From Akkermansiaceae bacterium (GTDB taxonomy: Bacteria; Verrucomicrobiota; Verrucomicrobiia; Verrucomicrobiales; Akkermansiaceae): a stretch of DNA of 64,000 nt. The stretch is from contig CP059069.1 in NCBI GenBank assembly GCA_017798145.1, positions 1,411,226 through 1,475,225 of the forward strand, given 5' to 3'. The notes beneath the pieces are model-generated. The model had not been told where the DNA came from. It was given only the letters and a program-made list of their open reading frames with translations, and did not search any database. This document shows, piece by piece, positions 18,433-35,216 of the stretch (its first letter is position 1; each line of letters starts with the position of its first letter). The translations under genes were made by a program, and so were the position numbers.

Positions 18433-19302
18433 ATGAACCCCGCCGAAAAAGCCGACGCCCTCATCGAAGCCCTGCCCTACCTCCAGGCCTTCCGTTCCAA
18501 GACCATCCTCATCAAGATGGGCGGTTCCGCCATGGAGGATCCGGATCTCGTCGCGAACGTGATGCGTGACATCGTCTTTCTCGAAGTGGCGGGTATCAAC
18601 CCCATCGTCGTCCACGGCGGCGGCAAGGCGATCTCCGCCGCCATGGAGAAATCCGGAATCGAGGCGAAGTTCATCAACGGTCTCCGCTACACCTCCGACG
18701 AGGCCATCGACATCGTCTCCCGCGTGCTTTCCAACGAGATCAACCCCGGCCTCGTCCGCATGATCCGCGACTTCGGCGGCAAGGCCATCGGCATCCCCGG
18801 CACCGACATCTTCCTCGGCGAGAAAATGAAAGCCACCGGCTCCGACGGCGGACAGGTCGATCTCGGGCGCGTCGGCGAGGTCATCGGCTGCCAGCTCGCG
18901 AACATGGACACCGCCCACAAGGCGGGCATCGTTCCGGTCATTTCCCCCCTCGCCTCCGAGCTCGCCACCGGCAAGCCGCTCAACATCAACGCCGACCTCG
19001 CCGCCGCCGCCCTCGCCAAGGAACTCCGCGTCTCCAAGCTCGTCTATCTCTCCGACGTCCCCGGCCTGCTTTCCGACGCGAAAGATACCTCCACCCTCAT
19101 CAAATCCATCAACCGCGCCCAAGCCGACGCGCTCATCGCCGACGGCACGATCTCCGGCGGCATGATCCCCAAAGTCCGCTCCGCCGTGGACGCCCTCAAC
19201 GCCGGGGTCCGCAAGGTCCACTTCGTCGATGGCCGCCTGCCGCACGCGCTGCTTCTGGAAATTTTCACCGATGGCGGCATCGGCACGGAGGTCATCCGTT
19301 AG
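18433..19302 (+). CDS. argB: Acetylglutamate kinase
   Basis: 289 residues. It phosphorylates N-acetylglutamate in arginine synthesis. Key blocks: TILIKMGGSAMED (ATP phosphate loop), IVVHGGGKAISA (acetylglutamate site) and NINADLAAAALAKEL, then LIADGTISGGMIPK near the C-terminus. Other arg genes are not in the window. It ends tail to tail with, and overlaps by four bases, a minus-strand membrane protein gene. Confidence 0.97.
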   Translation: MNPAEKADALIEALPYLQAFRSKTILIKMGGSAMEDPDLVANVMRDIVFLEVAGINPIVVHGGGKAISAAMEKSGIEAKFINGLRYTSDEAIDIVSRVLSNEINPGLVRMIRDFGGKAIGIPGTDIFLGEKMKATGSDGGQVDLGRVGEVIGCQLANMDTAHKAGIVPVISPLASELATGKPLNINADLAAAALAKELRVSKLVYLSDVPGLLSDAKDTSTLIKSINRAQADALIADGTISGGMIPKVRSAVDALNAGVRKVHFVDGRLPHALLLEIFTDGGIGTEVIR

Positions 19303-19880
19303 ATCCGACCCTCGCGGAACATCCTTTTCCTATCATTCACCTGCAGGATGATGATCGCGATGAAGCAAAAGATGAAGAGCATGAAGGAAAGGATCAGCCC
19401 TTCCAGCATAGTGGTCAGATAGACTTCCATGAAGCCGGGAACGGCACCGCTTCCGCCATCCAAGCGATCGAAGAGCGTAGCCTTGTAGCCGAGGAAATCA
19501 TAACCCCAGGCAACTGCCGCTGCGGCGATCCGTCCGCACCACAAATCCGGAGTCAGCATCAGCATGGGGCCGAACGGGATCAACGTCACCGTGATCACCG
19601 ATATGACCAGCCTGACGAGGAGGCCGGCGTTCATCGCCCTTGCAAACAGGCTGTCATTTCTCGAAAGCGGCCCCGGAAGCGATGTCAGCACCGAATACGC
19701 CAGCACAAAGGTGAACACCGCGCAAAACATCGCCACATGGGAAACGGGAAAGGCCCAAAGCCCCAGCCACACCACCGCTATCAGATAACTGGGCAAGGCA
19801 TTGATCAGGCAGTGCCAGAACCATTTCTTCAGACACGAGGGGAAAAGTTCCCTGAACTCCTTGCAGGATTCCGGTTTCAT
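19299..19880 (-). CDS. Hypothetical multi-pass membrane protein
   Basis: 193 residues with about four or five hydrophobic helices (including PSYLIAVVWLGLWAFPVSHVAM and LILSFMLFIFCFIAIIIL) and a basic C-terminal end. No family recognised. It is the last gene of the minus-strand cluster holding two GYF_2-CD225 proteins and a DUF2752 protein. An ATG at 19943 would add 21 residues and overlap the DUF2752 stop by 11 bases; both starts are possible. Confidence 0.65.
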   Translation of the reverse strand: MKPESCKEFRELFPSCLKKWFWHCLINALPSYLIAVVWLGLWAFPVSHVAMFCAVFTFVLAYSVLTSLPGPLSRNDSLFARAMNAGLLVRLVISVITVTLIPFGPMLMLTPDLWCGRIAAAAVAWGYDFLGYKATLFDRLDGGSGAVPGFMEVYLTTMLEGLILSFMLFIFCFIAIIILQVNDRKRMFREGRI

Positions 19881-19932
19881 CTGAACGGAATATGTGTATC
19901 TCCGCGCCAAGGAGCAACCTTTCCCCAGCCAC

Positions 19933-20307
19933 CTACCAAACATTCCGCCCCACCCACCATACGATCACCACCACCGCGATCACCGTCGCCCCCCAGCGCC
20001 CGGGGTTGATCCGGAAGGGCAGCGGCTTCCCCCTGACCCAGCCAAGCACCTCGATTCCGAGGCCCAGCAGCGCCAGCGGCAGCAGCACCATGCCGACTGG
20101 ATTGAATGAGAACGCCTTGGCCACATCGCCGTGCAGCAGCGCATAGGTTCCCCGCGTCATCCCGCAGCCCGGGCAATCAAGCCCGGTCAGCTTCCGGAAC
20201 GCGCAGCCAGGCATCCATCCGGCGCCACCCGTCTCCCTCAGCATGTAGGCGGCGAATGCCAGGCCGAGCACCGCAAGCGAAGCCCACAATGCGCGGTCCC
20301 TGTGCAC
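19933..20307 (-). CDS. DUF2752 family membrane protein
   Basis: 124 residues. The family mark is the Cys pair region CAFRKLTGLDCPGCGMTRGTY followed by ALLHGDVAKAFSFNP, with three or four hydrophobic helices. DUF2752 proteins are often found beside CD225/dispanin-type proteins in Bacteroidota and Verrucomicrobiota, and that is so here: the upstream GYF_2-CD225 gene ends ten bases before this start. Function unknown. Confidence 0.85.
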   Translation of the reverse strand: MHRDRALWASLAVLGLAFAAYMLRETGGAGWMPGCAFRKLTGLDCPGCGMTRGTYALLHGDVAKAFSFNPVGMVLLPLALLGLGIEVLGWVRGKPLPFRINPGRWGATVIAVVVIVWWVGRNVW

Positions 20308-20317
20308 GTCGCGGGCT

Positions 20318-20818
20318 TTAGTTCAGGGATCCGCTCGCGGCACCAATGATGATCAGCAAGACATATGCCACGAGCACAAAAAGCCCGCAACCGACGGCGA
20401 CGCTCATCCAGGTCTTGGCGGACTTCGATGCTGCGTTGGCACCGGCGATATCGCCGCGTGCGACAAGGCCGTCCACCTTTGCGGCATACACGATCGCCAC
20501 AACGCCGAAAGGCATGCAACATAGCACGGTCGCCACGATCGACTGCCAGAGATAGTTCGGGATCTGCGGGGCGTATCCGGCGGGATACGCGGCAGGCTGC
20601 TGCATCGGCACGGAACCCATCTGGCCGAGTGCCGGCACCTGGGGAGAAATTCCGCCGGGATGCAGCTCGGGAACCTGGCCGTAGGCTTTCCAATCCGCCA
20701 TCCCCTCCTTCCAGACGAGATCCGTGGCGAGAACCTCGCCGCTGCTTGCCTTCGCTTTGAGTTCCTCGTCCGTGAGCGGGCCGAGCTGCGTTCCGTTTTT
20801 CGAATAATACCAGGACAT
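20318..20818 (-). CDS. GYF_2 plus CD225/dispanin protein, second paralog
   Basis: About 166 residues. The N-terminal GYF_2 domain (MSWYYSKNGTQLGPLTDEEL, then VWKEGMADWKAYGQVPEL) probably binds proline-rich ligands in the cytoplasm. A Pro/Gln-rich linker leads to a CD225/dispanin segment: PNYLWQSIVATVLCCMPFGV, then AIVYAAKVDGL, and ANAASKSAKTWMSVAV before a final helix. CD225 is the domain of animal IFITM proteins. The two domains are known together in bacteria; no activity is established. The ATG at 20818 places the GYF domain at the very start. Confidence 0.88.
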   Translation of the reverse strand: MSWYYSKNGTQLGPLTDEELKAKASSGEVLATDLVWKEGMADWKAYGQVPELHPGGISPQVPALGQMGSVPMQQPAAYPAGYAPQIPNYLWQSIVATVLCCMPFGVVAIVYAAKVDGLVARGDIAGANAASKSAKTWMSVAVGCGLFVLVAYVLLIIIGAASGSLN

Positions 20819-20876
20819 GAGACCATTAGAATCCACGTCCGCATGGCGGAGTCAAGTTTCACATCGGGCAAAGAAT

Positions 20877-21458
20877 TCAGAAACTGCCGACGGCGAAGAA
20901 AACGAACATCCCGATGAGACCCAGGAGGATCAGTCCCGAAAGCGCAAAAGAAACGATCATCCAGACCTTTGCGGATTTCGAGGCGGACTCGGCCTCGATG
21001 AGCCTGCCCTGAACCCGCAACCCCTCGACCTTGTTGGCGTAAACCAAGGCCACGATCGCGAACGGCATCCCGATGGGCAGGCAGATCAGCAACATCAGCA
21101 CGCCACTGAGCACCAGCGCGACGATGGACTGCCACATGTAGTTGGGGATCTGGGGCGCGATGTAATTCCCTTGGTAAGCGGGTGGCTGAGGCAGCGGGAT
21201 GTGACCCGGCTGCGGGTTCGCAGGCTGCCGTTCCGGCGCCATCACAGGAGCTAGGCCACCCGGTGCATCCGCTGTGGGTGTCGCAAGGGGGGATTCCTGA
21301 AGCTCGGCAACCCCTGAAATCGGCAGCCAGCCCGCCATGCCCTCGCGCCACACAAGCGTAGTTGGCCCAATCTCGCCCCTGCGTATCTTCTGGCGCAGCT
21401 CGTCCTCCGGCACTGGCCCTTGCTGCAATCCCATCTTCGTGTAGTTCCAGAGCGTCAT
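20877..21458 (-). CDS. GYF_2 plus CD225/dispanin protein, first paralog
   Basis: About 193 residues with the same order as the downstream paralog: GYF_2 (MTLWNYTKMGLQQGPVPEDEL, then VWREGMAGWLPISGVAEL), a longer Pro-rich linker, and the CD225 part (IPNYMWQSIVALVLSGVLML, AIVALVYANKVEGL, ESASKSAKVWMIVSFAL). Tandem duplication is likely because the two proteins align throughout while differing in the linker. It heads the run of four minus-strand genes ending at 19299, with short gaps that suit one operon. Confidence 0.88.
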   Translation of the reverse strand: MTLWNYTKMGLQQGPVPEDELRQKIRRGEIGPTTLVWREGMAGWLPISGVAELQESPLATPTADAPGGLAPVMAPERQPANPQPGHIPLPQPPAYQGNYIAPQIPNYMWQSIVALVLSGVLMLLICLPIGMPFAIVALVYANKVEGLRVQGRLIEAESASKSAKVWMIVSFALSGLILLGLIGMFVFFAVGSF

Positions 21459-21511
21459 ACGGGAAACCATCCTTCGGACACGCCCGGGGTGTCAATCCCA
21501 CCGGACAGCCC

Positions 21512-21889
21512 TCACCACCTTTCGTCCCCGGAATCGACCACAGGCAGGGCGGATTCAAACTCCTCAAAAGTCAGGAAAAGCCGATCCGGAGGGTCATGGG
21601 GCGAGAGACCGAGCGGCATCACACCGGACAAAGGGGCTACAGGTTTCCTTCTCACGGGATTTTGAACCGGGCAGCTGATCATGCCTCCGCATGTCGTCTT
21701 TTCCTCTCCGGCAAACATCACGAACTGCGGCCGGTAATCCGGCACCTTCCGCAGCTTCACCCCATCCATCACGACCGCGCCCAGAACCACGAACACCAGT
21801 CCGGCCACCATCCCCAAGAGAGCCGCAGTCACCCGCTCCCAATGCACTCGGCGCTTCGCTGAAATGGATGTTTCAAAATGCAGGCTCAT
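21512..21889 (-). CDS. Hypothetical single-pass membrane protein
   Basis: 125 residues: a short basic N-terminus, one transmembrane helix (VTAALLGMVAGLVFVVLGAVVM) and a soluble part with a Cys-containing segment (EEKTTCGGMISCPVQNP). No family recognised. It lies between mnmA and the GYF/CD225 cluster on the same strand with ~40-100 base gaps, so it may belong to the same transcript. Confidence 0.6.
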   Translation of the reverse strand: MSLHFETSISAKRRVHWERVTAALLGMVAGLVFVVLGAVVMDGVKLRKVPDYRPQFVMFAGEEKTTCGGMISCPVQNPVRRKPVAPLSGVMPLGLSPHDPPDRLFLTFEEFESALPVVDSGDERW

Positions 21890-21950
21890 GGTGTTTCCAC
21901 CTTCAACAACGCACTCCCACCGGAAACCCTTAGGTCACACAAGCCCAGTC

Positions 21951-21986
21951 TTCCCACTGATCACCGATCACTGATCACCCGGCACT
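21951..21986 (-). repeat. Short interspersed TGATCA-type motif, copy 4
   Basis: TTCCCACTGATCACCGATCA then CTGATCACCCGGCAC, overlapping the 3' end of mnmA. Unlike the other three copies it is not just upstream of a start codon on its own strand. Confidence 0.45.
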
Positions 21987-23064
21987 AGCAAACTCCCTCC
22001 ACCACCCCGCCCCCCAGCATCCTCCCGCCGTCGTAGAACGCCATGATCTGCCCCGCCACGATGGCCCGCTGCGCCTTTCCGAAAAACAGTTTCACCCTCC
22101 CGCCGTCTACCGCCTCCACCCTCGCGAGCTCCGCCTTCGCCCGGTAGCGCGGCTGTGCCTCCACCCGCTTTAGCGAGGCGATGTCCTCGTTGATCGAGCT
22201 GATACTGCCAACCATGCATTCCTTCGAGTAGAGCCCCTCCGTGTCCTCCCTGTCCCAGCCGATCACCAGCTGGTTCTCCGCCGCCTTTTTCCCCACCACC
22301 ACATACGCCATCCCATCCCTCGGCGAGGCGACCCCATGCCCTTTCCTCTGCCCTATCGTATAGAAGTGCAGCCCCCTGTGCTCGCCCATCACCTTGCCAT
22401 CCAGATCCACGATCTCGCCCGGCTTGTCCGGCAGATAATGCGCCAGGAAATCCCCCATCTTCACCTGACCAAGGAAACATATCCCCTGCGAATCCTTCTT
22501 CTCCGCCACCGGGAGGCCGAAACGCCGCGCCACCTCCCGCACCTCCGGCTTCAGCATTTCCCCTGTCGGAAAAAGCGCGTGCGCCACCTGGTGCTGCGTC
22601 ATCAGCGAGAGAAAATAGCTCTGATCCTTGTTAGGATCCGCCCCGCGAAGCACTGCCGCCTGTCCATTGGAAAGCACCCGCCGCCGCGCATAGTGCCCAG
22701 TGCCGACCGCCTCGAATCCCTGGCTGATCGCGTAATCAAGGAACACCCCGAACTTCATCTCCCGGTTGCACCACACATCGGGATTCGGCGTCAGCCCCTC
22801 CTCATATCCGTTCACCAGATACTCCACGATCTTCTCCTTATACTGGTCTATCAGATCGATCACCCGGAACTCGATCCCCAGCCTTTTCGCAACCGCATGC
22901 GCATCCGCTATGTCCTGCTCCCAAGGACAATCGCCCGGAATCCCCTCCTCGTTCATCCAGTTTTTCATGTAACCGCCCACCACCTCATGCCCCTGCTCCA
23001 CGAGCAGCGCCGCCGCCACCGCGCTATCCACACCCCCGGACAAACCAACCATCACCTTCGACAT
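21985..23064 (-). CDS. mnmA: tRNA 2-thiouridine(34) synthase MnmA
   Basis: 359 residues. It adenylates and thiolates U34 of Glu, Gln and Lys tRNAs. The PP-loop SGGVDSAVAAALL is at the N-terminus. The catalytic Cys pair is in NPDVWCNREMKFG and DSQGICFLGQVKMGDF, with IGQRKGHGV and a C-terminal beta barrel following. It is the last core gene before the accessory island at 23.1 kb. Confidence 0.96.
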   Translation of the reverse strand: MSKVMVGLSGGVDSAVAAALLVEQGHEVVGGYMKNWMNEEGIPGDCPWEQDIADAHAVAKRLGIEFRVIDLIDQYKEKIVEYLVNGYEEGLTPNPDVWCNREMKFGVFLDYAISQGFEAVGTGHYARRRVLSNGQAAVLRGADPNKDQSYFLSLMTQHQVAHALFPTGEMLKPEVREVARRFGLPVAEKKDSQGICFLGQVKMGDFLAHYLPDKPGEIVDLDGKVMGEHRGLHFYTIGQRKGHGVASPRDGMAYVVVGKKAAENQLVIGWDREDTEGLYSKECMVGSISSINEDIASLKRVEAQPRYRAKAELARVEAVDGGRVKLFFGKAQRAIVAGQIMAFYDGGRMLGGGVVEGVC

Positions 23065-23114: not shown

Positions 23115-23340
23115 CAAGGAGGGGCGCGCCCTATCGCCGCCCGGCAAGCCAAGCCATTTCCCAAGGAGGGGCGTGCCCTATGGCCGCCGACACAACCCAA
23201 GTCTTCCCAAGGAGCGGCGGATGTCATCCGCCAGACAACCCAAGCACCCAACCAAAGTCTTCCTGAACACTGAAAACTGCCAACTGGCAAACTCCTCTCC
23301 TCCATTCTTATCCGGCGGCCATAGGGCGCGCCGCTCCTTG
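23115..23340. repeat. REP/REPIN-like palindromic repeat cluster, copy A
   Basis: Contains two direct copies of CAAGGAGGGGCGYGCCCTAT, a CAAGGAGCGGCGGATG block with the internal palindrome GGCGGATG-T-CATCCGCC, a ~60-bp linker, and an inverted copy ending GCGCGCCGCTCCTTG. The same array of blocks recurs at 33190-33747, and shorter versions flank the RAYT gene. Apparent ORFs here (reading ALWPPGNP or PYGRPA) are translations of the repeat and not genes. It separates mnmA from the CRISPR-Cas locus. Confidence 0.85.
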
Positions 23341-23513
23341 TTCACCCTTCTTTCGCCAACGCCTCCTCCACCACGCGCTACTCCGCCGTTCTGAATAATT
23401 CCCTCAGCCCTTTGTTCCCCATTCCGCTTTGTTCCCCATTCCGGAGACACTCCAGGAGAACCCGCCCTCATTCAATCCGGTATTCTCTCTTCCCCTGATT
23501 AGCCCTCGCTGGC

Positions 23514-23551
23514 AAAAAAAGGGCGGGGTGTCCCGTAGGACAGAGCCCGCT
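23514..23551 (-). terminator. Rho-independent terminator of the tracrRNA
   Basis: Minus strand: outer stem GCGGG/CCCGC, inner stem TGTCC/GGACA around the tetraloop TACG, then seven T residues. It closes a transcript that starts at the anti-repeat 50 bases upstream, which is the strongest evidence for the tracrRNA strand. Confidence 0.85.
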
Positions 23552-23600
23552 AAATCTGATTATTGCTACGAAAAGACAACAAGCAGTGATCAATTACCGT
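23514..23600 (-). ncRNA. tracrRNA with a full-length 36-nt anti-repeat
   Basis: The 36 bases at 23565-23600, read on the minus strand, align to the CRISPR repeat over its whole length: the first 18 differ at one position, and the second half keeps register with mostly C-to-T changes. Modelled against the minus-strand repeat RNA this gives 28 Watson-Crick pairs, four G-U wobbles and four mismatches; two adjacent U-U mismatches after an 8-bp lower stem form an internal loop like the bulge of known Cas9 guides. The anti-repeat is followed by a short A/T-rich linker and a terminator hairpin with seven T residues. Predicted length is ~87 nt. It diverges from cas9. Coordinates of the 5' end are inferred. 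Confidence 0.85.
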
Positions 23601-23604
23601 AGAC

Positions 23605-23632
23605 ATGATGTCAAAAACCGAGAGTATGTCAA
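23605..23632 (-). promoter_or_regulatory. Predicted tracrRNA promoter
   Basis: Minus strand: a perfect TTGACA at 23632-23627 and CATCAT (4 of 6 matches to TATAAT) at 23610-23605, spaced by 16 bases. Transcription would begin about 23598, at the 5' end of the anti-repeat. The -35 box lies only a few bases upstream of the cas9 start codon, so tracrRNA and cas9 transcription may affect each other. Confidence 0.55.
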
Positions 23633-23635
23633 CCT

Positions 23636-26600
23636 ATGAATTACACATTGGGATTGGACATGGGAGTGGCATCGCTGGGTTGGTCGGTCGTTTCCGAAGA
23701 GGATGAGTTTATCGATACCGGGGTCAGGGTGTTCCCCGCCGCTGTTGACGCCTTCAATTCTTCCAAAGAGAAACACCCAAACCAAGACCGCCGTGGAGCC
23801 AGGGGCATGCGGAGGAGGATCAGACGCAAGGCGGAGAGGAAGAAAGCAATTTCCGAAGCGCTAGTTTCCCTAGGTTGGAAACCGGCGGAAGACGAAGCTC
23901 GCGAGGAATGGTTCGCTTTGGACGTATATGAACTCAGGCACCGCGCCATCCTTGAAAAGATTTCCCTCCAGGAACTAGGGCGCATCATCTATCACCTGAA
24001 CCAACGTCGGGGCTTTCTTTCCCTGCGCAAGACGGAGGCTAATACGGATGACAAGGAGACAAAGGGGATGCTTGGCGAGATCTCAGACCTCCAAAAAACC
24101 ATCTCGACATCCGGTGCAAAGACCTTGGGAAACCACCTCTACGAAACCTACAAAAAGGAAGGCATTTCCACTCGACTCCGGAACAGGCATTTCAGTCGAA
24201 GGATGCTGCACGATGAATTCGGTCTCATTTGGGAAACGCAGGCACAATGGCACCCTGAGCTCACCCCCATCATAAGGCATGGAACCGAGGGGATTCCCAA
24301 AAACGGAATCAAAGTCGTAAAACCTACCCCCGCCGCACCTGGACAGAACCTTCTCGAACAATTCGGAATTGAAGGCATGACCTTCTTCCAGCGGAAGGTT
24401 TATTGGAAAGAGGGGTCCATCGGCAAATGCGAGCTGGAGGCAGGCGACACCCGCGCTCCAGTCGCAGACCGCCGCTTCCAAGAGTTCCGGATGCTCCAGG
24501 AGGTCAACAACCTAAAGATAACTGATCTTTCTGAACCCGGTAACCCGTTAGAAAGGCGGCTCCATGAAGATGAACGCCTTGCTGCTGTCGCTTACCTGAC
24601 AGGAAAGGACAAACCGAAGCTAGATGCACTCAAAGTCAATCTCTGTAAGAACCGCAAATTGGAATCCTTCCCCCGGGAGCCAGCCCTCGTCACTTTCAAC
24701 CTCGAAAACAGCGGGCGCACCACCATTGCAGGCACAACGACCGACGCCAAGCTCAAGGGTGCGAAAATCCTCGGCAAGACCTGGGACAACTTCACGGAAT
24801 CACAGCTGAACGGTATCGTCGAAGCCCTCACCCTCCCCGCCGCCACGGATGAGGATATCCGGGAAGCCTTAGAAAAACTCGGCTTCCTCAAGGAACCCCA
24901 GATCGACAAACTCCTGTCCCTCTCACTTCCCACGGGTTACGGCCATCTATCCATCAAAGCTCTCGAAAGGCTCCTGCCTCACATGCGCAGCGGCATGCTC
25001 TACATGCACAAATCACCCGAGAGATCAGCAATGGCAGCAGCAGGCTACCAGCGCCGCGACGAACACGATAAGGAAAGCCTCGATCTCCTGCCCCGCCTTG
25101 AGGAAGTGCTGGATTCGGAGTCTCCCTTCTACGATCCCCAGCAGGTCGTCATCAACAATCCCGTCGTGCTTCGATCCCTTACCGAGATGCGCAAGGTCGT
25201 CAACGGCCTCATCCGGAAATACGGCAAGCCATCCCGCATCCATCTGGAGATGGCGCGCTCCCTGAAGATGGGGCCAAAGCAGCGAAAGGAACATGAAAAG
25301 GAAACGCGGGGATATGAGAGGGAACGGGAAAAGGCCGCCGCATTCCTCGAAAGCCACGACGTCATCCCCACCGGGGATGCACTCCAGCTTGTCCGCCTAT
25401 GGGAGGAACAGGAAAAGCAGTGCCCCTACTGCGACAAGGCCATCTCACAATCCCAACTTCTCGGTGGAGCTGGCGAGATCGACATCGACCACATCTTCCC
25501 CTTCAGCCGCTCCGCTGACAACAGCATGGCAAACAAGGTTGTCTGCCATCGTGGATGTAACAGGGACAAACTAAACAAGACACCCCGGGAGTGGCTAGAG
25601 TTCACCGATCCGGACGGCTACGAAGCCATGATCCAGCGCACCCGCAGCCTCCAGTCGAACAAGCGCAAACGCTTCTACGCGGAGGAAATCCCCGAGGGTT
25701 TTGCAAACAGGGATCTCAACGACACGGCATGGATGGCGAAAGCCGCCCGCCAATACCTCGCCCGCCTGATGGAAAAATCCCACCTCGTGCAGGGCACAAA
25801 GGGAACCCACACCGCCCTCCTCCGGGATCACTGGCAGCTACATTCCCTCCTCCGGAACGACGGTATCGATCTCAAGAACAGGGACGACCACCGCCACCAC
25901 GCCCTTGATGCCGTTCTCATAGCCCTCTGCGACCAAAGGCGTATCCGTGCGTTGCTGGACAAGCACCATTTCTCTCTCGTTGCAAAGGAGGCGAAGGAAA
26001 AGGGGAAACGCATCTACCGCCTCACGAATAGCGGTGAAAACATCGCCCCCCCTTGGCCGAACTTCCGGACGTCTGTCGAGTCCTCGCTCAATTCCATTTG
26101 GGTATCCCACCGTCCGCGCCGCAAGCTATCCGGAGCGCTCCATAAGGAAACAAACTATGGCAAGACTGCGGATGGGCTTCTCGTCGTTCGCAAGCCGATC
26201 CAGAACCTCAGCGCGAAGGAAATCGCCGGCATCCGCGATTCAGGTATCGCCGCCATCATCCGCGAGTATATCAATAGCCACGGGGGTGATGCCGCCTGCC
26301 TCAAGGCCATTACCCCGGAGAATCCGCTCCTGATGCCTTCCGGCACGCCCATACGCAAAGTCCGCACTGCCATCCCCTACTCCCATCTCACCATCCGTGA
26401 AGGCACCGACCACGAAACCCACGTCCAGTCCGCCTCCACCCACCACCTTGCCATCTTCTCTCTCGGCGATGGGAAATTCCACTTCGAGCCCGTAACCCTC
26501 TACGAGGCATCCCGCCGCCACCGTGCCAAAGAACCTGTCATCCAAAGGACTTTCGCGGGAATGCCGCCGGAAGCCGAGTTCCTCATGCACCTCTGCTCTG

Positions 26601-26849: not shown

Positions 26850-27752
26850 ATGATCAAGCATACCCTCGAGATCTCCCAACGAGCAGCACGCCTGTCCCTT
26901 AAGCAGCGACAGCTCGTCATCCATCTCGATGAAGGGGAGACACGCAGCTTCGCCTGCGAGGACATCGGCGTGCTCATCCTCCAGCATCCCGCCATCTCAC
27001 TGAGTTCTGCCCTGCTCAATGCCTTGCTTGAATCGGGAGCCGTCGTGGTCATCTGCAACGAAAAGCACCTGCCCTCAGGCCTCATCCTCCCCACCCTCAC
27101 CCACACCGAGCTGGTACCCAGGATGATGGCGCAGATGGGAGCTTCCCTCCCGGCACGCGAGCAGGCATGGAAGGCCATCGTCCAGGCGAAGATCCGCGCC
27201 CAGGCAAACGACCTCTCCCCATCCATCAAAGCCAGATTGCAAACACTCGCCGCAAACGTGAAATCCGGGGACGCGGAGAACCACGAAGCCCGCGCCGCAC
27301 GCCTCTATTGGCAGGCACGCTTCCCGGACCGATATCTTCAGGACGACAAGCGCGATCCCATGAGCGAATCCTTCTTCAACTCCCTACTAAACTATGGTTA
27401 CGCCATCATCCGTGCCGCCACCGCCCGCGCATTGGTATCAGCGGGGCTCCAGCCCGCCCTCGGCGTCTTCCACCACAGGCGGGACAACCCTTTCTGCCTT
27501 GCTGACGACGTGATGGAGCCTCTTCGCCCCTTGGTTGACCGGACAGTCCAGGCTCTTCTCGAAAACGAACCGGATCTCCAGACCGCAGCCATAGAAAGCC
27601 GCCACCGCAAGGAACTGCTTTCCCTTCTTGCCGCACCGGTGACCTTCGGCGAAACAAGCGGCCCGCTCATGGCCGTCCTCCCGCGCTACATCAATAGCTT
27701 CTACCGGTTGCTTGTCCGTGAAAGCGAACTGCTCGTCGTGCCAACCTACTGA
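26850..27752 (+). CDS. cas1: Type II CRISPR-associated endonuclease Cas1
   Basis: 300 residues. It is the spacer integrase, working with Cas2. Likely metal ligands are E146 (in NHEARAARLYW), H208 or H209 (in LGVFHHRRDNPFCLADD) and E223 in the following helix (DDVMEPLRPLVD). The N-terminal part ISQRAARLSLKQRQLVIHLD matches type II Cas1. AGAGG precedes the ATG by a few bases; the gene is in one operon with cas9 and cas2. Confidence 0.96.
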   Translation: MIKHTLEISQRAARLSLKQRQLVIHLDEGETRSFACEDIGVLILQHPAISLSSALLNALLESGAVVVICNEKHLPSGLILPTLTHTELVPRMMAQMGASLPAREQAWKAIVQAKIRAQANDLSPSIKARLQTLAANVKSGDAENHEARAARLYWQARFPDRYLQDDKRDPMSESFFNSLLNYGYAIIRAATARALVSAGLQPALGVFHHRRDNPFCLADDVMEPLRPLVDRTVQALLENEPDLQTAAIESRHRKELLSLLAAPVTFGETSGPLMAVLPRYINSFYRLLVRESELLVVPTY

Positions 27753-27754
27753 AC

Positions 27755-28084
27755 ATGAACATCTCAGGCTACCGCTGTATGTGGATCATCGTTCTTTTCG
27801 ACCTCCCAACCGACACCAAAAAGGCTCGGAGGCAATACACCGACTTCCGCAAAAGCCTGCTGGAGGATGGTTTTGCCATGATGCAGTATTCCGTCTACTT
27901 CCGCCACTGCGCCAGCAAGGAGAACGCGGAAGTCCACCAGCAGCGTGTCCGTATGAGCGTCCCGCCGGATGGTGAAGTCCGTGTCATCCAGTTCACAGAC
28001 AAGCAGTTCGCAAGGATGGAAGTGTATTTTGGAAAACGCCGCACCCGAACCGAAGGAGCGCCTGCCCAACTGGAAATGTTTTGA
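27755..28084 (+). CDS. cas2: CRISPR-associated endoribonuclease-like Cas2
   Basis: 109 residues, a little longer than average. The ferredoxin-like fold shows MWIIVLFDLPTDTKKAR with the conserved Asp at residue 16, and GFAMMQYSVYFRHCAS. Cas2 is mainly the structural bridge of the Cas1-Cas2 integrase. It starts two bases after the cas1 stop and ends 46 bases before the first repeat. Confidence 0.95.
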   Translation: MNISGYRCMWIIVLFDLPTDTKKARRQYTDFRKSLLEDGFAMMQYSVYFRHCASKENAEVHQQRVRMSVPPDGEVRVIQFTDKQFARMEVYFGKRRTRTEGAPAQLEMF

Positions 28085-28091
28085 AGGAAAC

Positions 28092-28124
28092 TTCGGAACC
28101 GACTGCAAATCAGTCGGTTCCGAA
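28092..28124. promoter_or_regulatory. 14-bp perfect palindrome between cas2 and the CRISPR array
   Basis: The arms TTCGGAACCGACTG and CAGTCGGTTCCGAA are exact complements around the loop CAAAT. The hairpin ends six bases before the first repeat and starts seven after the cas2 stop. It has no good T-run on either strand (GTTTCCTTC on the minus side), so it may be a weak bidirectional terminator, an RNA-processing stem, or a leader/integration element. Confidence 0.75.
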
Positions 28125-28130
28125 TCTCCT

Positions 28131-30139
28131 ATGGTAATTGATCACTGCCTGCGGTCAATCCGCAGCTCCCGCCATAATCTCTCCGCTCGGCCTCATATGG
28201 TAATTGATCACTGCCTGCGGTCAATCCGCAGCTCGCTGGACTGCCGCGCCGTCGAATTTAAATGGTAATTGATCACTGCCTGCGGTCAATCCGCAGCTAA
28301 CCTACAAAGGCTAGTATCAGAACTACCATGGTAATTGATCACTGCCTGCGGTCAATCCGCAGCGACTTTCGCCGCTTGGACGGTTTTGTATTTATGGTAA
28401 TTGATCACTGCCTGCGGTCAATCCGCAGCTTTATGCTTCATGTCTTCGACCGCTACTGGATGGTAATTGATCACTGCCTGCGGTCAATCCGCAGCCGATT
28501 TCACAAATCATTTCCGGCTGGCGCATGGTAATTGATCACTGCCTGCGGTCAATCCGCAGCTGGAGCTGGCAAGCGGCGCGGGGTGGCGTGATGGTAATTG
28601 ATCACTGCCTGCGGTCAATCCGCAGCTAGGGCGGCGAGGCCGTCCACAACCCCAAGATGGTAATTGATCACTGCCTGCGGTCAATCCGCAGCTAGCGTCA
28701 ACACCGGACTGGAATCCGACTGATGGTAATTGATCACTGCCTGCGGTCAATCCGCAGCATCGCGTCCCTTGACCAAAATGCACCTGCGATGGTAATTGAT
28801 CACTGCCTGCGGTCAATCCGCAGCCCCGGCCGCTGGGGCACTCTCTTCCCTCATATGGTAATTGATCACTGCCTGCGGTCAATCCGCAGCCAGAAGGCGA
28901 CGCCGATGAGAGCGTCTGAATGGTAATTGATCACTGCCTGCGGTCAATCCGCAGCCGGCGGATGTCGGCAGAGCTGGCGGCGCGGATGGTAATTGATCAC
29001 TGCCTGCGGTCAATCCGCAGCAATCCCGGCGATGGCTTCGACATGTGCCTTATGGTAATTGATCACTGCCTGCGGTCAATCCGCAGCCGGACGGATGGAC
29101 TGGCGAGGTCGATGACGATGGTAATTGATCACTGCCTGCGGTCAATCCGCAGCTCCGTGAAGGTTACATCCGATGACAAGGGTATGGTAATTGATCACTG
29201 CCTGCGGTCAATCCGCAGCTATACGTTCTAACCTATCGTGGAAAGCCTGATGGTAATTGATCACTGCCTGCGGTCAATCCGCAGCGCGATACCATGCGGA
29301 GCGGCTGGCTGGCATATGGTAATTGATCACTGCCTGCGGTCAATCCGCAGCCATCCTTGCCGACATCAAAAACAGCAACAAATGGTAATTGATCACTGCC
29401 TGCGGTCAATCCGCAGCGTAAGCGTGGAACTAACCAATTCGGCCATCATGGTAATTGATCACTGCCTGCGGTCAATCCGCAGCAGGGGGTTCTGGAAGAT
29501 CAATGCCCCTGCAATGGTAATTGATCACTGCCTGCGGTCAATCCGCAGCATTGCCGCTTGCCAGAAACATCTTCGCGCCATGGTAATTGATCACTGCCTG
29601 CGGTCAATCCGCAGCTAGCTTGCCGGGCCATGGATCAACGCGCCTATGGTAATTGATCACTGCCTGCGGTCAATCCGCAGCTTCGTGGATGTCTTCCGGC
29701 ATTCCGTAGTATGGTAATTGATCACTGCCTGCGGTCAATCCGCAGCTAGATGGCGACCTCGATGAAGGTGGCTGCATGGTAATTGATCACTGCCTGCGGT
29801 CAATCCGCAGCTAGATGGGCGACCCCCAGAGCCGTCCTGATATGGTAATTGATCACTGCCTGCGGTCAATCCGCAGCGCAAAATGCAAGACAAAGGCGTC
29901 CACCTACATGGTAATTGATCACTGCCTGCGGTCAATCCGCAGCTGAATCGCCTGGAGCCGGGCTGGTTGCGGATGGTAATTGATCACTGCCTGCGGTCAA
30001 TCCGCAGCGAGGCCGAGGAGATCCGGAAGGAGCTGCTATGGTAATTGATCACTGCCTGCGGTCAATCCGCAGCCAAGTCATCGAAGCAAAACGGCGCCAA
30101 GGGATGGTAATTGATCACTGCCTGCGGTCAATCCGTTGC
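28131..30139 (-). CRISPR. CRISPR array: 31 repeats of 36 bp, 30 spacers of 29-30 bp
   Basis: The repeat begins ATGGTAATTGATCACTGC on the plus strand and ends in the hairpin CTGCGG-TCAAT-CCGCAG plus C. Repeats 1-30 appear identical by eye; repeat 31 (30104) has two changes near its end. Repeat starts step by 66 bases except seven steps of 65 (at 28262, 28525, 28920, 29711, 29776, 29973, 30038), so 23 spacers are 30 nt and seven are 29 nt. The minus strand is assigned as the crRNA strand from the tracrRNA pairing: a crRNA is then spacer followed by GCTGCGG... at its 3' side. No two spacers were seen to be alike. ORFs across the array (repeating VIDHCLRSIRS or GLTAGSDQLP) are artefacts of the 66-bp period. 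Confidence 0.97.
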
Positions 30140-30169: not shown

Positions 30170-30190
30170 ATGGTAATCGGTCACTGTTCC
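30170..30190 (-). repeat. Decayed half repeat at the array end
   Basis: ATGGTAATCGGTCACTGTTC starts exactly 66 bases after repeat 31 and matches the first ~20 bases of the repeat with a few changes. The hairpin half is lost. It shows the array once extended further on this side. Confidence 0.75.
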
Positions 30191-30196
30191 GAGTGG

Positions 30197-30619: not shown

Positions 30620-31336
30620 TCAGGGTTGCTTGGGGAGATCCTCGGGATTGCTGACGATGGGCTCCAAGCCAGCGGCGCGGGCTTTCGCGATGGCTTTGGC
30701 GGAGGCGCGTTTGAGGGCAGCCTCCGCACCGATGAAATCGGGATCGTCGAGGGGTTTGACGGGCATGGTTTTACCGGTGTCCGTGAGGTAAGGGGTGACG
30801 TCTTCCATGAGCTTTTCAGGGGCGGGGTTATCGCCGGTATCGATCAGGATTGGCGGGGTGCAGGAAGCATCGTAGATCGCCCATTCATCGACAATGCCAA
30901 TGTAGGCGGCTTGCAGGTTCACCCACCCGCGCGCGTAGCGGCGGCGTATGGTTTCCGTTGGGATATCGTGGCCACCCAAGCGGACGCGTTGGGCAACCCG
31001 GTGGATGGCAAACTCCGCATCGGGCAGTTTCAGGAAATAAAGTTTCACCACATAGCCTGCCTTTTTCCAAACAGGGATGAGACGGAGATAGGTCCGGGTG
31101 GAGAGTGTGGTCTCGAACGCAAAGCTTTTCCCTGCAGCAACCAGATCCGCGATCCGCTCCAGCATCAGCCGGCCTGCCGCAAAGGCCACCTGCTCCGGCT
31201 GGAAGGGGCTCAGTCCGGCGGCGATGAGATCTGCATTCACGAATTCCGGGCAACCCGCTTCGTTTGGGAGGAGTTCCTCCGCAAAGGTGGTCTTCCCTGC
31301 CCCGTTCGGCCCGGCGATGATGAGGATTTTCTTCAC
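30620..31336 (-). CDS. Zeta-toxin-like P-loop kinase
   Basis: 238 residues. The Walker A motif is IIAGPNGAGKTTFAEELLP (Lys 15), followed by FVNADLIAAGLSP, the region that in zeta toxins binds UDP-N-acetylglucosamine, and FAFETTLSTRTYL. The remainder includes VRLGGHDIPTETIRRRYARG, typical of chromosomal zeta_toxin-family proteins. Classical zeta toxins phosphorylate peptidoglycan precursors and are neutralised by an epsilon antitoxin. No epsilon-like gene is present, and many chromosomal relatives are not proven toxins. Its ATG overlaps the TGA of a truncated HsdR frame. The pair lies between 57-bp direct repeats. Confidence 0.8.
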   Translation of the reverse strand: MKKILIIAGPNGAGKTTFAEELLPNEAGCPEFVNADLIAAGLSPFQPEQVAFAAGRLMLERIADLVAAGKSFAFETTLSTRTYLRLIPVWKKAGYVVKLYFLKLPDAEFAIHRVAQRVRLGGHDIPTETIRRRYARGWVNLQAAYIGIVDEWAIYDASCTPPILIDTGDNPAPEKLMEDVTPYLTDTGKTMPVKPLDDPDFIGAEAALKRASAKAIAKARAAGLEPIVSNPEDLPKQP

Positions 31337-31551
31337 GCGACGAGGATTGCGTTGAGTTCCTCGATGATGCCGAGAGCCTTGCCATCGACAAAGAGGATGT
31401 AGTCGGCGGGACCGCCAAAAGATTGCAGCTCGCGGACGGCGACGCCACGGGAGGCGGAGAGGTTCAGCTCCTTGATGTCCTGCACCGCCCAGCCCGCCGC
31501 CGCCAATTGGGCGTCGATGGTTTCGCGGGCGGATTGTTCAGGAGTCGGCAT
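31333..31551 (-). pseudogene. N-terminal fragment of a type I restriction subunit R (HsdR)-like protein
   Basis: 72 residues. ARETIDAQLAAAGWAVQDI, then LNLSASRGVAVREL and ADYILFVDGKALGIIEE, follow the opening of EcoEI-type HsdR proteins, whose N-terminal part continues into a ~1000-residue nuclease-helicase. Here the match stops after about 65 residues at GIIE, where the family normally reads an E-x-K nuclease motif, and the frame ends with LNAILVA overlapping the zeta-like start codon (ATGA). So it is a remnant, possibly re-used as a short leader or partner ORF for the kinase gene. No hsdM or hsdS is present. Confidence 0.65.
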
Positions 31552-31793
31552 CTGTCATTGGGTTTCTAACCAATCCACTGCATTCGGGAAGGGCAAAGTG
31601 CAGCCAAGGAGGGGCGGATGGCGATGTGGGGGGCGATCTTCGGTCGCCGCTTCCTTCTGACATGCTACGGGTGTGCGACCGGAGCTGAGCGCTCCAGATG
31701 GAGGGACTGTTAAAAAATTATCCTATCCCTCAACCGTGCCTATGGCCGCCTGCACCGGCACGGGAGAGGGCTGGGGTTGCCATATCCGGGTGC
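31552..31793. repeat. Intergenic region with degraded REP-like pieces
   Basis: CCAAGGAGGGGCGGATGG near 31602 and TATGGCCGCC at 31741 are partial forms of the REP block. No coding frame is supported. Confidence 0.45.
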
Positions 31794-31850
31794 TTCTCCG
31801 GCGGCCATAGGCACGCCGCTCCTTGGGACTTTTGCAACATGTGTAAGATT
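31794..31850. repeat. 57-bp direct repeat, right copy (REP-related)
   Basis: By eye identical to 30197-30253, in the same orientation, so the kinase/HsdR-fragment segment lies between two direct copies about 1.6 kb apart. It could be a duplicated insertion scar or the border of a mobile unit. Confidence 0.85.
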
Positions 31851-32037
31851 AGTTAATCATCTTCCGGATATGTATCTCTTTGATAATCAAAGGGATAGGA
31901 TTTCGATTCCCGTTTCCCTTGCCATTTTTCGCGGATCCGTGCATATGTGAACCATGTCATTAGGGCTTCCAGTCCGGGGCGGTGAGGGAGGGTTGGGAGT
32001 AGGGGTGCAGGCGGGATTTGCGGATCTGGGAAATCAA

Positions 32038-32310
32038 TTGTCCGCCCGGGAAAACGGCTTGTTCGACCGGGAAAACGGCTTGTCCGACCGGGGAAACGAA
32101 TTGTCCGACCTGGGAAATCAATTATCCGACCGGGGGAATGGCTTATCCGTCCGGGGAAGTGAATTATCCGACCGGGGGAACGGCTTGTCCGGCCGGGGAA
32201 ATGGCTTGTCCGACCGGGGAAATGGCTTATCCGACCGGGGAAACGGCGTGTCCGACCGGGGAAACGGCGTGTCCGACCGGGGGAACGGCGTTTCCGACCG
32301 GGGAGATCCG
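32038..32310. repeat. 21-bp minisatellite, ~13 units
   Basis: The unit is close to TTGTCCGACCGGGGAAACGGC, with variation mainly at positions 3 and 16-21. Because 21 is a multiple of three, frames stay open on both strands: seven-residue repeats such as CPTGETA or LSDRGNG on plus and RFPGRTS on minus. None of these frames has a recognisable gene around it. The stretch ends ~180 bases before the Fn3-like protein start. Confidence 0.85.
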
Positions 32311-32488
32311 CCCGCTCATCGAAGAAAAACCCTTTCCCGGGCGCGAGCGCGCCCACCCGAGGGACCCGGAAGGGTCTTGCCAACACCAACCCGATACGAC
32401 CCCTGATGGAGGGAAGTCCCGGACTCGCCGGCAAGTGCCGCTGCGGGCAGGCGTCGCATCAAACGCATACCAACCGAAAGATAAGAAA

Positions 32489-33121
32489 ATGCAAAAGTTA
32501 ACCATAAGCTTTTCGAAGCTGAATAACAACGACCTGTATGCCAAGGCCAGCCATATCATGGCCACCTTGGCGGGGATACCGGGGGATACCTATTTCCCGG
32601 AACCATTCCCCTCCCCCATCCCGGGGCTCGCGGATATCAACACGGCGGCGCAGGCGCTCAAGGCGGCGATGGACAAGATCACGTCCACCGCAGTGACGGC
32701 GGAGCGCAACGCGCTACGCGAGCCGCTCATCCTGCTGTTGCAGCAGCTCGCCCCGTATCTGGAGATCGTGGCGCAGGACAACCCCGAATGGCTGGAATAC
32801 ACCGGCTACGACCTGCGCAAGACGCCGGAACACACACACATGCCTCCGGGGATGCCGCAGGATGTGCGTGTGCGCTCCACCGGCATCACCGGGTTCATCC
32901 AGACGAAGTGCAAGCCGGAGCCGCTCGCGGACTTCTACGAGCTGGAGTCCTCGCCGGATCCCGCGACAGGGCCATGGACATACCGGGGTTCCTATCCGAA
33001 CTCGCAGAACATGGAGACCGGCGGCTTCGCCCACGGCGAGGACGTCTTCGTCCACGTCCGCGCGGTGGGCACGAACGGCCCCGGCCCGTGGTCCGATCCC
33101 GCGCTGGTGCTTGTCTCGTAG
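32489..33121 (+). CDS. Hypothetical protein with a C-terminal fibronectin-III-like domain
   Basis: 210 residues, no signal peptide. The first ~110 residues are helical (LADINTAAQALKAAMDKITS, LILLLQQLAPYLEIVAQ). The rest looks like a single Fn3-type beta domain: STGITGFIQTKCKPEPLADF, then YELESSPDPATGPWTYRGSY and VFVHVRAVGTNGPGPWSDPA. The ATG at 32489 follows an A-rich, lower-GC stretch; the frame is open far upstream through the minisatellite, but that part is repeat-derived. No specific function; similar Fn3-tailed proteins are common in this phylum. Confidence 0.75.
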   Translation: MQKLTISFSKLNNNDLYAKASHIMATLAGIPGDTYFPEPFPSPIPGLADINTAAQALKAAMDKITSTAVTAERNALREPLILLLQQLAPYLEIVAQDNPEWLEYTGYDLRKTPEHTHMPPGMPQDVRVRSTGITGFIQTKCKPEPLADFYELESSPDPATGPWTYRGSYPNSQNMETGGFAHGEDVFVHVRAVGTNGPGPWSDPALVLVS

Positions 33122-33189
33122 CCGGGTGACTCCCCCCTGGAAACAAAAACATGGGTGTCTCCGCAAGATGCGGGGGCACCCTTTTTTGC

Positions 33190-33747
33190 CAAGGAGGGGC
33201 GCGCCCTATGGCCGCCCGGCAAGCCGAGTCTTCCCAAGGAGCGGCGGATGTCATCCGCCAGACAACCCAAGCACCCAACCAAAGTCTTCCTGAACACTGA
33301 GAACTGCCAAACTCCTCTCCTCCATTCTTATCCGGCGGCCATAGGGCGCGCCGCTCCTTGTCCCTTTTCCCAAGGAGGGGCGTGCCCTATGGCCGCCCGG
33401 CAACCCGAGTCTTCCCAAGGAGCGGCGGATGTCATCCGCCAGACAACCCAAGCACCCAACCAAAGTCTTCCTGAACACTGAAAACTGCCAACTGGCAAAC
33501 TCCTCTCCTCCATTCTTATCCGGCGGCCATAGGGCGCGCCGCTCCTTGTCCCTTTTCCCAAGGAGGGGCGTGCCCTATGGCCGCCCGGCAAGCCGAGTCT
33601 TCCCAAGGAGCGGCGGATGTCATCCGCCAGACAACCCAAGCACCCAACCAAAGTCTTCCTGAACGCTGAAAACTGCCAACTGGCAAACTCCTCTCCTCCA
33701 TTCTTATCCGGCGGCCATAGGGCGCGCCGCTCCTTGTCCCTTTTCCC
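33190..33747. repeat. Three tandem copies of a 181-188-bp REP-containing repeat
   Basis: Units start at 33190, 33371 and 33559. Each holds a CAAGGAGGGG block, a CAAGGAGCGGCGGATGTCAT block, a ~60-base linker with CTTCCTGAACACTGA and an inverted block ending CGCCGCTCCTTG, then TCCCTTTTCC. Unit 1 is 181 bp and lacks a few linker bases; units 2 and 3 are 188 bp and differ at few positions. The same arrangement occurs at 23115-23340. Confidence 0.9.
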
Positions 33748-33749
33748 AA

Positions 33750-35012
33750 TCAGGCGCTGAGCAGGCGCCGGAACTTCGACATCCTGTCGGTGTTCTCGCA
33801 GACGATCTTGAAGATCACCAGGGCAGGCATGGCGATGAGCATCCCGGCGATGCCCCAGAACCCCGCCCATGCGAAGATCCAGACGAAGACGACGAGGGGA
33901 TTGATGCGGAAGCGGCCACCGAGGACGGCGGGCGTCACCAGGTTTCCCTCAACGGCGGTGAGGGCGAAATAGACGATGGGCACCGCGATCACCGTCCCGG
34001 GATCCTGGAAGCTCACCGCTGCGGCAAGGAAAACCACGAGCGTCCCTCCCAAGGCGCCGACATAGGGGATGAAGTTCAGGATCATCGCCATCACACCCCA
34101 CAGCAAAGGGCGCGGCATCCCCAGCGCCCACATCGCCGCGGCGATGCAGATGCCGAGGCAGGCGTTGATGATGGTGATGGTGAACATGTAGCGCGAGACC
34201 TCGCTGCCCATCCTGTCGAGGATGGCCTCAAGGTTCGCATCGCGGTAGAGTTGGCCGACGATGCGGTGGCCGTACGCGAGGATGAAAAAGACCATCAGCA
34301 GGAAGGCGGCGAAGCCCAGCCCGAAGTCGCGCGTCTCCGTGAGCAGGATGCCGACGGGATCCTCGTGGATCTCGACCATCACGGGTTTGTCGGCCTTGGA
34401 TTCCTGGGCATCCGCAGCCTCCTCTGTCTTCCCGGTTCCGGATGGTTTCTCCTTTTCCCTGGAGACCTTCGGATCGGGGGCCGTCACATCCTCCACCACC
34501 TCATCGAATTTCTCCGCCGTTCCCTCCCCCGCTTTCCTGGGAGCCGCCTCCTCAGGCTGTTCCGGAGGAGCGGTTTCGTTCGCCGCCTTCTCCACCCTGC
34601 TCGCCATTTCCTTGATCCCATCCTGCGCCTCTTTCATCGGCCGGAAGACCTCCCTCACCCGACCCAGCACCTCTTCCTCATCCACATTGCGCAGCCACTC
34701 GGCGCCCGGGAGGATCGCATTGTAGGCACCGAGGGAAAGGATCGCCATCAACCCCACCACAGTCAGGCCGGAGCACAGCAGGCGCGGCAGGCGGAGCTTC
34801 CGGAAGATTAGGTAAACCGGATTCAGGATCAGGGAGACGAGAACCGCGAGAACGAGCGGCAGCAGCACCGGCTTCATCTCGTGGAGCACGTAGCAGAGCA
34901 CGATCACAAACAGCCCGACCTGTGAGAATCCGACCGCGCTCATCCCGGTCGGCGTTGTCGGCCAATGGAAGCGCTTCGGCTGCGGCCGGGTCTCGGATTC
35001 TTCTGGGTTCAT
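33750..35012 (-). CDS. AI-2E family transporter (PF01594-like permease)
   Basis: 420 residues. It has paired N-terminal helices (VGLFVIVLCYVLHEMKPVLLPLVLAVLVSLIL), a soluble insertion of ~100 residues rich in Glu, Ala, Lys and Pro, and a C-terminal membrane block including GMPRPLLWGVMAMILNFIPYVG, LVTPAVLGGRFRINPLVVFV and GIAGMLIAMPALVIFKIV. These are the conserved blocks of the family, whose members include the AI-2 exporter TqsA and Na+/H+ antiporters; the substrate is unknown here. The long charged insertion is unusual. The ATG at 35012 avoids repeat-derived sequence upstream, and the stop codon is three bases from a REP repeat unit. Confidence 0.88.
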   Translation of the reverse strand: MNPEESETRPQPKRFHWPTTPTGMSAVGFSQVGLFVIVLCYVLHEMKPVLLPLVLAVLVSLILNPVYLIFRKLRLPRLLCSGLTVVGLMAILSLGAYNAILPGAEWLRNVDEEEVLGRVREVFRPMKEAQDGIKEMASRVEKAANETAPPEQPEEAAPRKAGEGTAEKFDEVVEDVTAPDPKVSREKEKPSGTGKTEEAADAQESKADKPVMVEIHEDPVGILLTETRDFGLGFAAFLLMVFFILAYGHRIVGQLYRDANLEAILDRMGSEVSRYMFTITIINACLGICIAAAMWALGMPRPLLWGVMAMILNFIPYVGALGGTLVVFLAAAVSFQDPGTVIAVPIVYFALTAVEGNLVTPAVLGGRFRINPLVVFVWIFAWAGFWGIAGMLIAMPALVIFKIVCENTDRMSKFRRLLSA

Positions 35013-35084
35013 CGGGGCGAGCTTCGCGAGAATCCGCAGACAATGCCAGCGGAGTTTGGAATGTTCTTTCGATCGCCGACATGC

Positions 35085-35216
35085 CAAGGAGGGGCGTGCC
35101 CTATGGCCGCCCGGCAACCCTAGTCTTCCCAAGGAGGGGCGTGCCCTATGGCCGCCCGGCAACCCGAGCCATATCCTCCATTCTTATCCGGCGGCCATAG
35201 GGCACGCCGCTCCTTG
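35085..35216. repeat. REP-like block pair downstream of the RAYT gene
   Basis: Two direct CAAGGAGGGGCGTGCCCTAT blocks (35085 and ~35130) and one inverted block ending CACGCCGCTCCTTG at 35216. The inverted block ends three bases before the RAYT stop codon. Confidence 0.85.

Follow-up and report, generated by a model that had tools for sequence, protein, structure and literature searches.

A tracrRNA binds Cas9 together with the crRNA and is required for cleavage. In Neisseria meningitidis its anti-repeat spans the whole repeat and the RNA forms more than one hairpin; in Campylobacter jejuni it is a compact scaffold that contains GCGGG and has an anti-repeat of 25 nt. The C. jejuni locus, a type II-C system with the gene order cas9-cas1-cas2, is described as producing crRNAs from promoters in the repeats and very short tracrRNAs of ~62 and ~74 nt (PMC3656092). 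In type II-C systems, the array is described as running against the direction of the cas operon (PMC3936727). New spacers are reported to be added next to the final repeat of many such arrays, with a separate promoter inside every repeat; a mutated extra repeat, the oldest, is reported for 60% of II-C systems and is common but not universal (PMC12080349). Gasiunas et al. placed tracrRNAs in seven clusters plus unassigned sequences, with the shortest sgRNAs in the two-hairpin clade V (PMC7606464). In the open-licence literature, the titles and abstract openings on Akkermansia or Verrucomicrobia tracrRNAs, on single-stem-loop scaffolds, and on whole-repeat anti-repeats do not name the clade described below.

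The window analyzed here, meaning the whole stretch of 64,000 nt from an Akkermansiaceae bacterium, carries a locus that resembles that of C. jejuni in its cas9-cas1-cas2 order, its putative repeat promoters, and its very short candidate tracrRNA, a compact scaffold that likewise contains GCGGG. On the plus strand, cas9, cas1, and cas2 are followed by the array (Table 1). No PADLOC match to csn2 or cas4 was found in the eight neighboring ORFs (18433–23064 and 30623–35162), where one weak match, to mads_8, was returned; across the cas genes and these neighbors, the locus thus has the type II-C composition of cas9, cas1, and cas2 without csn2 or cas4. Among titled records, the closest relatives are MAGs of Akkermansiaceae, at 71% identity, and of Rubritalea, at 62%. 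Scanning the genome with HNH_4 returned two matches, of which the first is the 1067-aa Cas9 and the second falls in a frame of 224 aa, and a Cas9 search of viral contigs found none. A repeat-spacer search of the genome matched only the array at 28131–30139, among the 30 matches listed. Comparison of the array region with phage records returned eight records at E 0.6, with no significant spacer target; as these matches are at chance level, they yield neither a protospacer nor a PAM. GC-rich direct repeats of ~150–190 nt (23193–23341 and 33109–33737) flank the CRISPR locus, direct repeats at 21-nt spacing occur inside open frames at 31995–32346, and an AAA/zeta-toxin-like ORF lies on the minus strand beside the far end of the array (30620–31336).

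Table 1. Features of the CRISPR-Cas9 locus and of the putative tracrRNA gene, in window coordinates
Feature	Position	Strand	Basis or description
promoter-like TTGACA (23632–23627) -16- CATCAT (23610–23605)	23605–23632	-	promoter scan and 12-locus comparison
tracrRNA gene (putative), 87 nt including T-run	23514–23600	-	predicted start near 23598
anti-repeat	23565–23600	-	32/36 pairs with minus-strand repeat; 8-bp lower stem, UU/UU internal loop, long upper stem
linker AATAATCAGATTTA, 14 nt	23551–23564	-	predicted single-stranded; largely conserved across 12 loci
single hairpin GCGGG-CUC-UGUCC(UACG)GGACA-C-CCCGC	23523–23550	-	likely nexus and terminator stem combined
seven T, 3′ of hairpin and CC	23514–23520	-	read from letters
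cas9, 1067 aa	23636–26839	+	TIGR01865, 660 bits; HNH_4, RuvC_III, Cas9_a
cas1, type II, NMENI model	26850–27752	+	profile match
cas2	27755–28084	+	profile match
CRISPR array, 31 repeats, spacers 29–30 nt	28131–30139	-	crRNA sense inferred
degenerate partial repeat, where minus-strand transcription would start	30170–30193	-	by eye

The 87-nt element upstream of cas9 is very probably the tracrRNA of this type II-C locus, a reading that draws on its divergent position, its pairing with the whole repeat, its conservation at 12 loci, and the compensating changes among them. A sequence-only reading of the window had proposed a tracrRNA of ~87 nt at this site, divergent from cas9 and with a repeat-spanning anti-repeat, and the comparative data, which also include a conserved −35 motif, bear this out. 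As that reading described, the 36 bases of the anti-repeat align without gaps to the whole repeat, and the hairpin, the seven T behind it, and the TTGACA just upstream are present in the letters. The minus strand from 23600 to 23565 (ACGGTAATTGATCACTGCTTGTTGTCTTTTCGTAGC) and the plus-strand repeat (ATGGTAATTGATCACTGCCTGCGGTCAATCCGCAGC) share 28/36 identities. With G·U counted, 32/36 pairs with the minus-strand repeat are predicted. If equal base frequencies are assumed, the chance of at least 28/36 identities anywhere on the two strands of 64 kb is ~6e-6. Co-folding with the minus-strand repeat, the check proposed along with that reading, gives a predicted duplex of −53.5 kcal/mol, as compared with a mean of −24.1 (SD 4.0, minimum −43.4) for 1914 random 87-mers from the window. 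Sequence comparison elsewhere and on the plus strand agrees with the proposed placement: 23565–23600 is the best anti-repeat site of the window outside the array (the runner-up reaches 26 pairs), no other minus-strand site there has fewer than 15 mismatches, the plus sense pairs more weakly, and the element is present as a single copy in the 4.39-Mb, one-contig genome (E ≤ 0.001). The 51 nt 3′ of the anti-repeat have a predicted folding energy of −17.6 kcal/mol, with a z of −2.9 relative to shuffled sequences, and an Rfam scan of the window at the gathering score returned 0 matches.

Relatives of the locus were gathered by searching for Cas9 in a titled collection and in three overlapping samples of genomes, from the phylum (387), the order (386), and the family (260). 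The 36 stretches taken from Cas9 matches make 37 loci with the window, of which five were dropped for having no usable anti-repeat near cas9 (L068, L069, L074, L085, and L089); L055 shares its contig with L032, as does L057 with L033, and each of these pairs was counted once. One tracrRNA clade comprises 12 loci, including that of the window, with a mean column identity of 88%. At all 12 the element lies on the minus strand relative to cas9, 36–69 nt ahead of the first matched codon, and the sequence 3′ of the T-run seems, by eye, unrelated among loci. Pairing of each element with its own repeat was evaluated at 10 loci, excluding L044 and L057, whose stretches contain no repeat; the repeats of L056 and L059 each rest on one copy. 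At 10/10 of these, a nearly whole-repeat duplex is predicted, and the minus sense (−43.3 to −54.6 kcal/mol) is stronger than the plus sense (−29.7 to −39.1 kcal/mol) at every locus, by 6 to 22 kcal/mol. The most diverged member, G608, forms 20/22 distal pairs with its own repeat and 13–15 with the nine others. Changes on both sides of distal pairs are found at positions 3 and 8 in loci other than G608 and at positions 9, 10, 18, 20, 21, and 22 in G608 alone, whereas most other clade anti-repeats fit a foreign repeat about as well as their own. Because the other clade repeats are nearly identical, the strongest evidence for compensation comes from this one locus.

The promoter-like TTGACA-16-CATCAT is the one such site in the 501 bases scanned (23300–23800), where 0.4 would be expected, and CATCAT ends 4 nt from the anti-repeat; this position implies a putative transcription start near 23598. 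TTGAC is present at 12/12 clade loci, 29–31 nt ahead of GGTAA or AGTAA (background 0.0009 per nt); the −10 element is not conserved across the 12. A formal terminator scan around the tracrRNA called no terminator, since its rule demands an uninterrupted stem with a T-run at most 2 nt behind and the stem of this hairpin contains an internal loop. A run of at least four T follows the hairpin at 11/12 clade loci, the exception being G608, which is without a run of four T. Two further proposals about this region were set aside. A cas9 promoter on the plus strand of the anti-repeat (AAGACA-16-TACCGT) was rejected for its poor −35, which is not kept in relatives, and the idea that the UU/UU loop removes a repeat-type −35 from the anti-repeat is not general, several other loci pairing perfectly there.

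The array is putatively read from the minus strand, opposite to the cas genes; this crRNA sense draws on the strength of the duplex in each sense, on the hairpin, and on the degenerate end repeats. Among the 31 repeats, 30 are identical and the one at 30104 differs at 2 positions; together with the partial repeat at 30170, it gives the far end the degenerate repeats of the published II-C pattern. Each array repeat contains TTGACC-16-TACCAT, with 9/12 promoter matches, and the repeat at 30104 keeps this motif, its changes falling outside. Across the phylum, 12/28 distinct repeats, many of them mutually related, reach 9/12 −35/−10 matches near the repeat end, a level reached by 0.7% of shuffles. 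These observations suggest that a complete promoter may sit within single repeats. Between cas2 and the array, at 28092–28124, an inverted repeat with 14-nt arms is visible by eye and could be a leader element or a two-way terminator.

The most distinctive feature of the element is its one-hairpin scaffold; neither its length nor the reach of its anti-repeat stands out as much as first claimed. At 11/12 clade loci a T-run of at least four is reached 47–52 nt past the anti-repeat (median 51), behind one predicted hairpin. The 20 other phylum Cas9 loci (L065–L088) likewise carry the gene upstream of and divergent from cas9, but nearly all of those with a T-run have more than one predicted hairpin, and the distal repeat half is mostly not clearly paired. 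Such a T-run is found at 19/20 of them, at a median of 67 nt (range 40–74), and 18/19 with the T-run have two or three predicted hairpins. The window's 51 nt is shorter than in 17/19; for the two shortest, L073 and L084, an early T-run may have truncated the measured length. The sequence-only description of a short, self-contained tracrRNA is therefore apt within the phylum sample, as regards both the single hairpin and the length; at 87 nt, however, the RNA is not unusually short, given the ~62 and ~74 nt reported for C. jejuni (PMC3656092). As that description also proposed, the RNA might give the 1067-residue Cas9 a small guide scaffold. The hairpin alignment of the clade has 96.7% of cells paired, versus 42.5–59.2% when slid. 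Two hairpin pairs have changes on both sides in the window's sequence, one of them also in G535; this covariation alone is modest, since shuffled 3′ letters give two both-side pairs in 27/500 cases.

A hairpin with a 3-nt/1-nt internal loop and a C-G-closed 4-nt loop, set between an outer and an inner stem, starts 9–20 nt past the anti-repeat at 14/20 other phylum loci, and at 13 of these the predicted fold has two or three hairpins ahead of the T-run; at L065 and L088 the same shape starts at 23 nt. In the clade it starts at 14–17 nt at 10/12 loci, L058 and L059 missing the strict 3/1 shape. The shape search is permissive (~15% of shuffles match), other loop shapes score in up to 15/20 other loci, and the minimum-energy folds of those loci do not always show the 3/1 hairpin, so that the case for homology with their nexus depends on where the hairpin lies and on its loop, as judged by eye. 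The clade hairpin is likely the first hairpin (nexus) of the other loci with a longer GC stem that abuts the T-run, so that nexus and terminator would be one and the separate terminator hairpin of most other loci would be gone.

The sequence-only reading also held that pairing in type II tracrRNAs is usually confined to a portion of the repeat. This fits the phylum sample, in which pairing of the distal repeat half is clear at 1/20 other loci (L071, −27.9 kcal/mol with its own repeat vs −10.2 with the best foreign repeat); L065, L078, L081, L084, and L086 are marginally beyond the foreign range, L088 ties, and 13 do not exceed it. It also agrees with Riemerella, for which a 16-nt anti-repeat is reported for a 47-nt repeat (PMC5006608). 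It fits less well outside the phylum. Of 12 plasmid-borne Cas9 loci from there, five had no array found and seven were compared, with no shuffle control; at 2/7, Azospirillum thermophilum and Pigmentibacter ruber, the anti-repeat pairs over repeat positions 1–36. The others pair over positions 2–35 (Ilyobacter, sense uncertain), 1–35 (Tistrella, with a weak distal part), 1–31 (Limnohabitans), or 21 of a 21-nt consensus (Bosea), and Subdoligranulum is not above background. A. thermophilum and P. ruber resemble the clade in that a 36-nt repeat is spanned and the gene lies upstream of cas9, on the strand opposite to it, but differ, as judged by eye, in the sequence 3′ of the anti-repeat and in forming more than one hairpin; N. 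meningitidis likewise differs in its more than one hairpin. Pairing with the whole repeat is thus distinctive within the phylum sample and known elsewhere, and its presence in A. thermophilum, P. ruber, and Neisseria makes it no mark of novelty.

Two explanations would deny the element its role as a minus-strand tracrRNA. If the functional tracrRNA (or the crRNAs) were on the plus strand, the minus-strand hairpin would be merely a terminator, and the plus strand of the same site does form 29/36 pairs with a plus-strand crRNA, at about −38 to −39 kcal/mol. However, the minus sense forms 32 pairs at −53.5 kcal/mol and is stronger at 10/10 clade loci; the hairpin, T-run, and TTGAC are all on the minus strand, and the degenerate repeats are found where transcription of the minus strand would begin, making this arrangement highly improbable. 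We consider it equally far-fetched that the element is a functionless decayed solitary repeat or leftover terminator: scaffold remnants without a close Cas9 do exist (L101, L103, and L104), but an open cas9-cas1-cas2 operon and an array adjoin this one, and conservation at 12 loci comes with compensatory changes.

Other possibilities concern what else the RNA might do, or how it folds. It could also regulate cas9, a candidate role in which any cas9 mRNA with its 5′ end upstream of 23514 would include the tracrRNA antisense. The distance from anti-repeat to ATG is just 35 nt, the scan of 23300–23800 held no promoter-like plus-strand site for cas9, and the best plus-strand match in the 250 nt ahead of the gene is 8/12; on the other hand, there is no spacer-like 5′ extension, the predicted start being at the anti-repeat, and the distance between element and cas9 varies from 36 to 69 nt among relatives. 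Such regulation appears improbable. Somewhat less so, though still doubtful, is a pseudoknot or triple helix like that of C. jejuni, in which the linker CAG would pair with the CUG after GCGGG, and GCGGG with CCCGC. The order of motifs in the C. jejuni tracrRNA is similar (its anti-repeat, at 25 nt, differs from the 36 nt here), and all three CAG:CUG pairs are possible at 9/12 clade loci, with a fourth pair in the window. Additionally, a triple helix is described in the CjCas9 and BlCas9 guides (PMC11222456). Against this fold, the third pair is broken at 3/12 loci and the second at 1/12 without compensation, the linker helix is without covariation, and the pseudoknot competes with two hairpin pairs kept at 12/12 and 11/12 loci.

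Copies of the putative tracrRNA scaffold also occur away from this cas9. A covariance model built from the clade matched 14/260 family genomes, ten of which also have the Cas9; G617, G659, G610, and G736 have a scaffold match and no Cas9 match at E ≤ 1e-30, the element in G736 beginning at a contig edge. In G617, a nearly complete copy (L101:7195–7282, plus strand; 103 bits) lies 5 nt past the stop of a cas12b gene (L101:3107–7189; NCBIfam Cas12b, 564 bits) that accompanies a Cas4-Cas1 fusion, and the end of cas12b occupies the place of the tracrRNA promoter. G610 holds two remnants (L104:7891–7950 and L103:7868–7947), one of which consists of hairpin and T-run behind a 205-aa cas12b remnant. 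In G659 (L102:7612–7794), a Cas9 of another subfamily (1145 aa) has its own upstream anti-repeat (7612), which pairs with the repeat of that locus at −28.1 kcal/mol, and the scaffold follows further on; here a hairpin replaces the distal portion of the scaffold's anti-repeat, and the whole may form the 3′ end of a longer tracrRNA. In the L101 locus, no long own-repeat anti-repeat scored above chance-like values, a weak test given that type V-B anti-repeats are short. On this result, the G617 and G610 copies are taken to be leftovers that may serve as terminators. Use of the scaffold by Cas12b was considered and rejected on the same weak test. Cas12b was matched in 18/254 genomes, three of them among the model hits: G617, G610, and the window's own genome. 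The last encodes a Cas12b-like protein (G000:C1:3624346–3628461) with 35% identity to that of L101, and its sole copy of the element sits at cas9, not at the Cas12b-like gene.

Activity as a tracrRNA would begin with RNA polymerase, directed by the putative TTGACA promoter in the gap that separates cas9 from the anti-repeat, initiating at ~23598, and transcription would stop at the hairpin and its seven T, at 23514. Minus-strand transcription of the array would yield the crRNAs, probably through the promoter-like TTGACC-16-TACCAT inside the repeats. Along the crRNA repeat, the anti-repeat is predicted to form the 8-bp lower stem, the UU/UU loop, and an upper stem, long and with few mismatches, that would be the RNase III substrate for processing. 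Cas9 would grip the lower part of the duplex together with the conserved AAUAAUCAGAUUUA linker and with the hairpin, whose outer stem, 3-nt/1-nt loop, 5-bp inner stem, and C-G-closed tetraloop would double as nexus and terminator.

More broadly, these data tentatively suggest, at somewhat less than even confidence, an Akkermansiaceae-centered tracrRNA family in which the nexus took over termination, combining a one-hairpin scaffold with a whole-repeat anti-repeat and moving as a module, to a place beside another Cas9 subfamily and to one directly behind a cas12b gene. The family goes uncaught by Rfam models in the window at the curated threshold, and the covariance model finds it. Apart from the proposed hairpin merger, the locus has the ordinary CRISPR anatomy of the well-known II-C type. 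If the merger of nexus and terminator is true, the clade shows how far a natural Cas9 guide scaffold can shrink, and the phylum would offer a natural series, from two or three hairpins to one, for testing which parts Cas9 needs.
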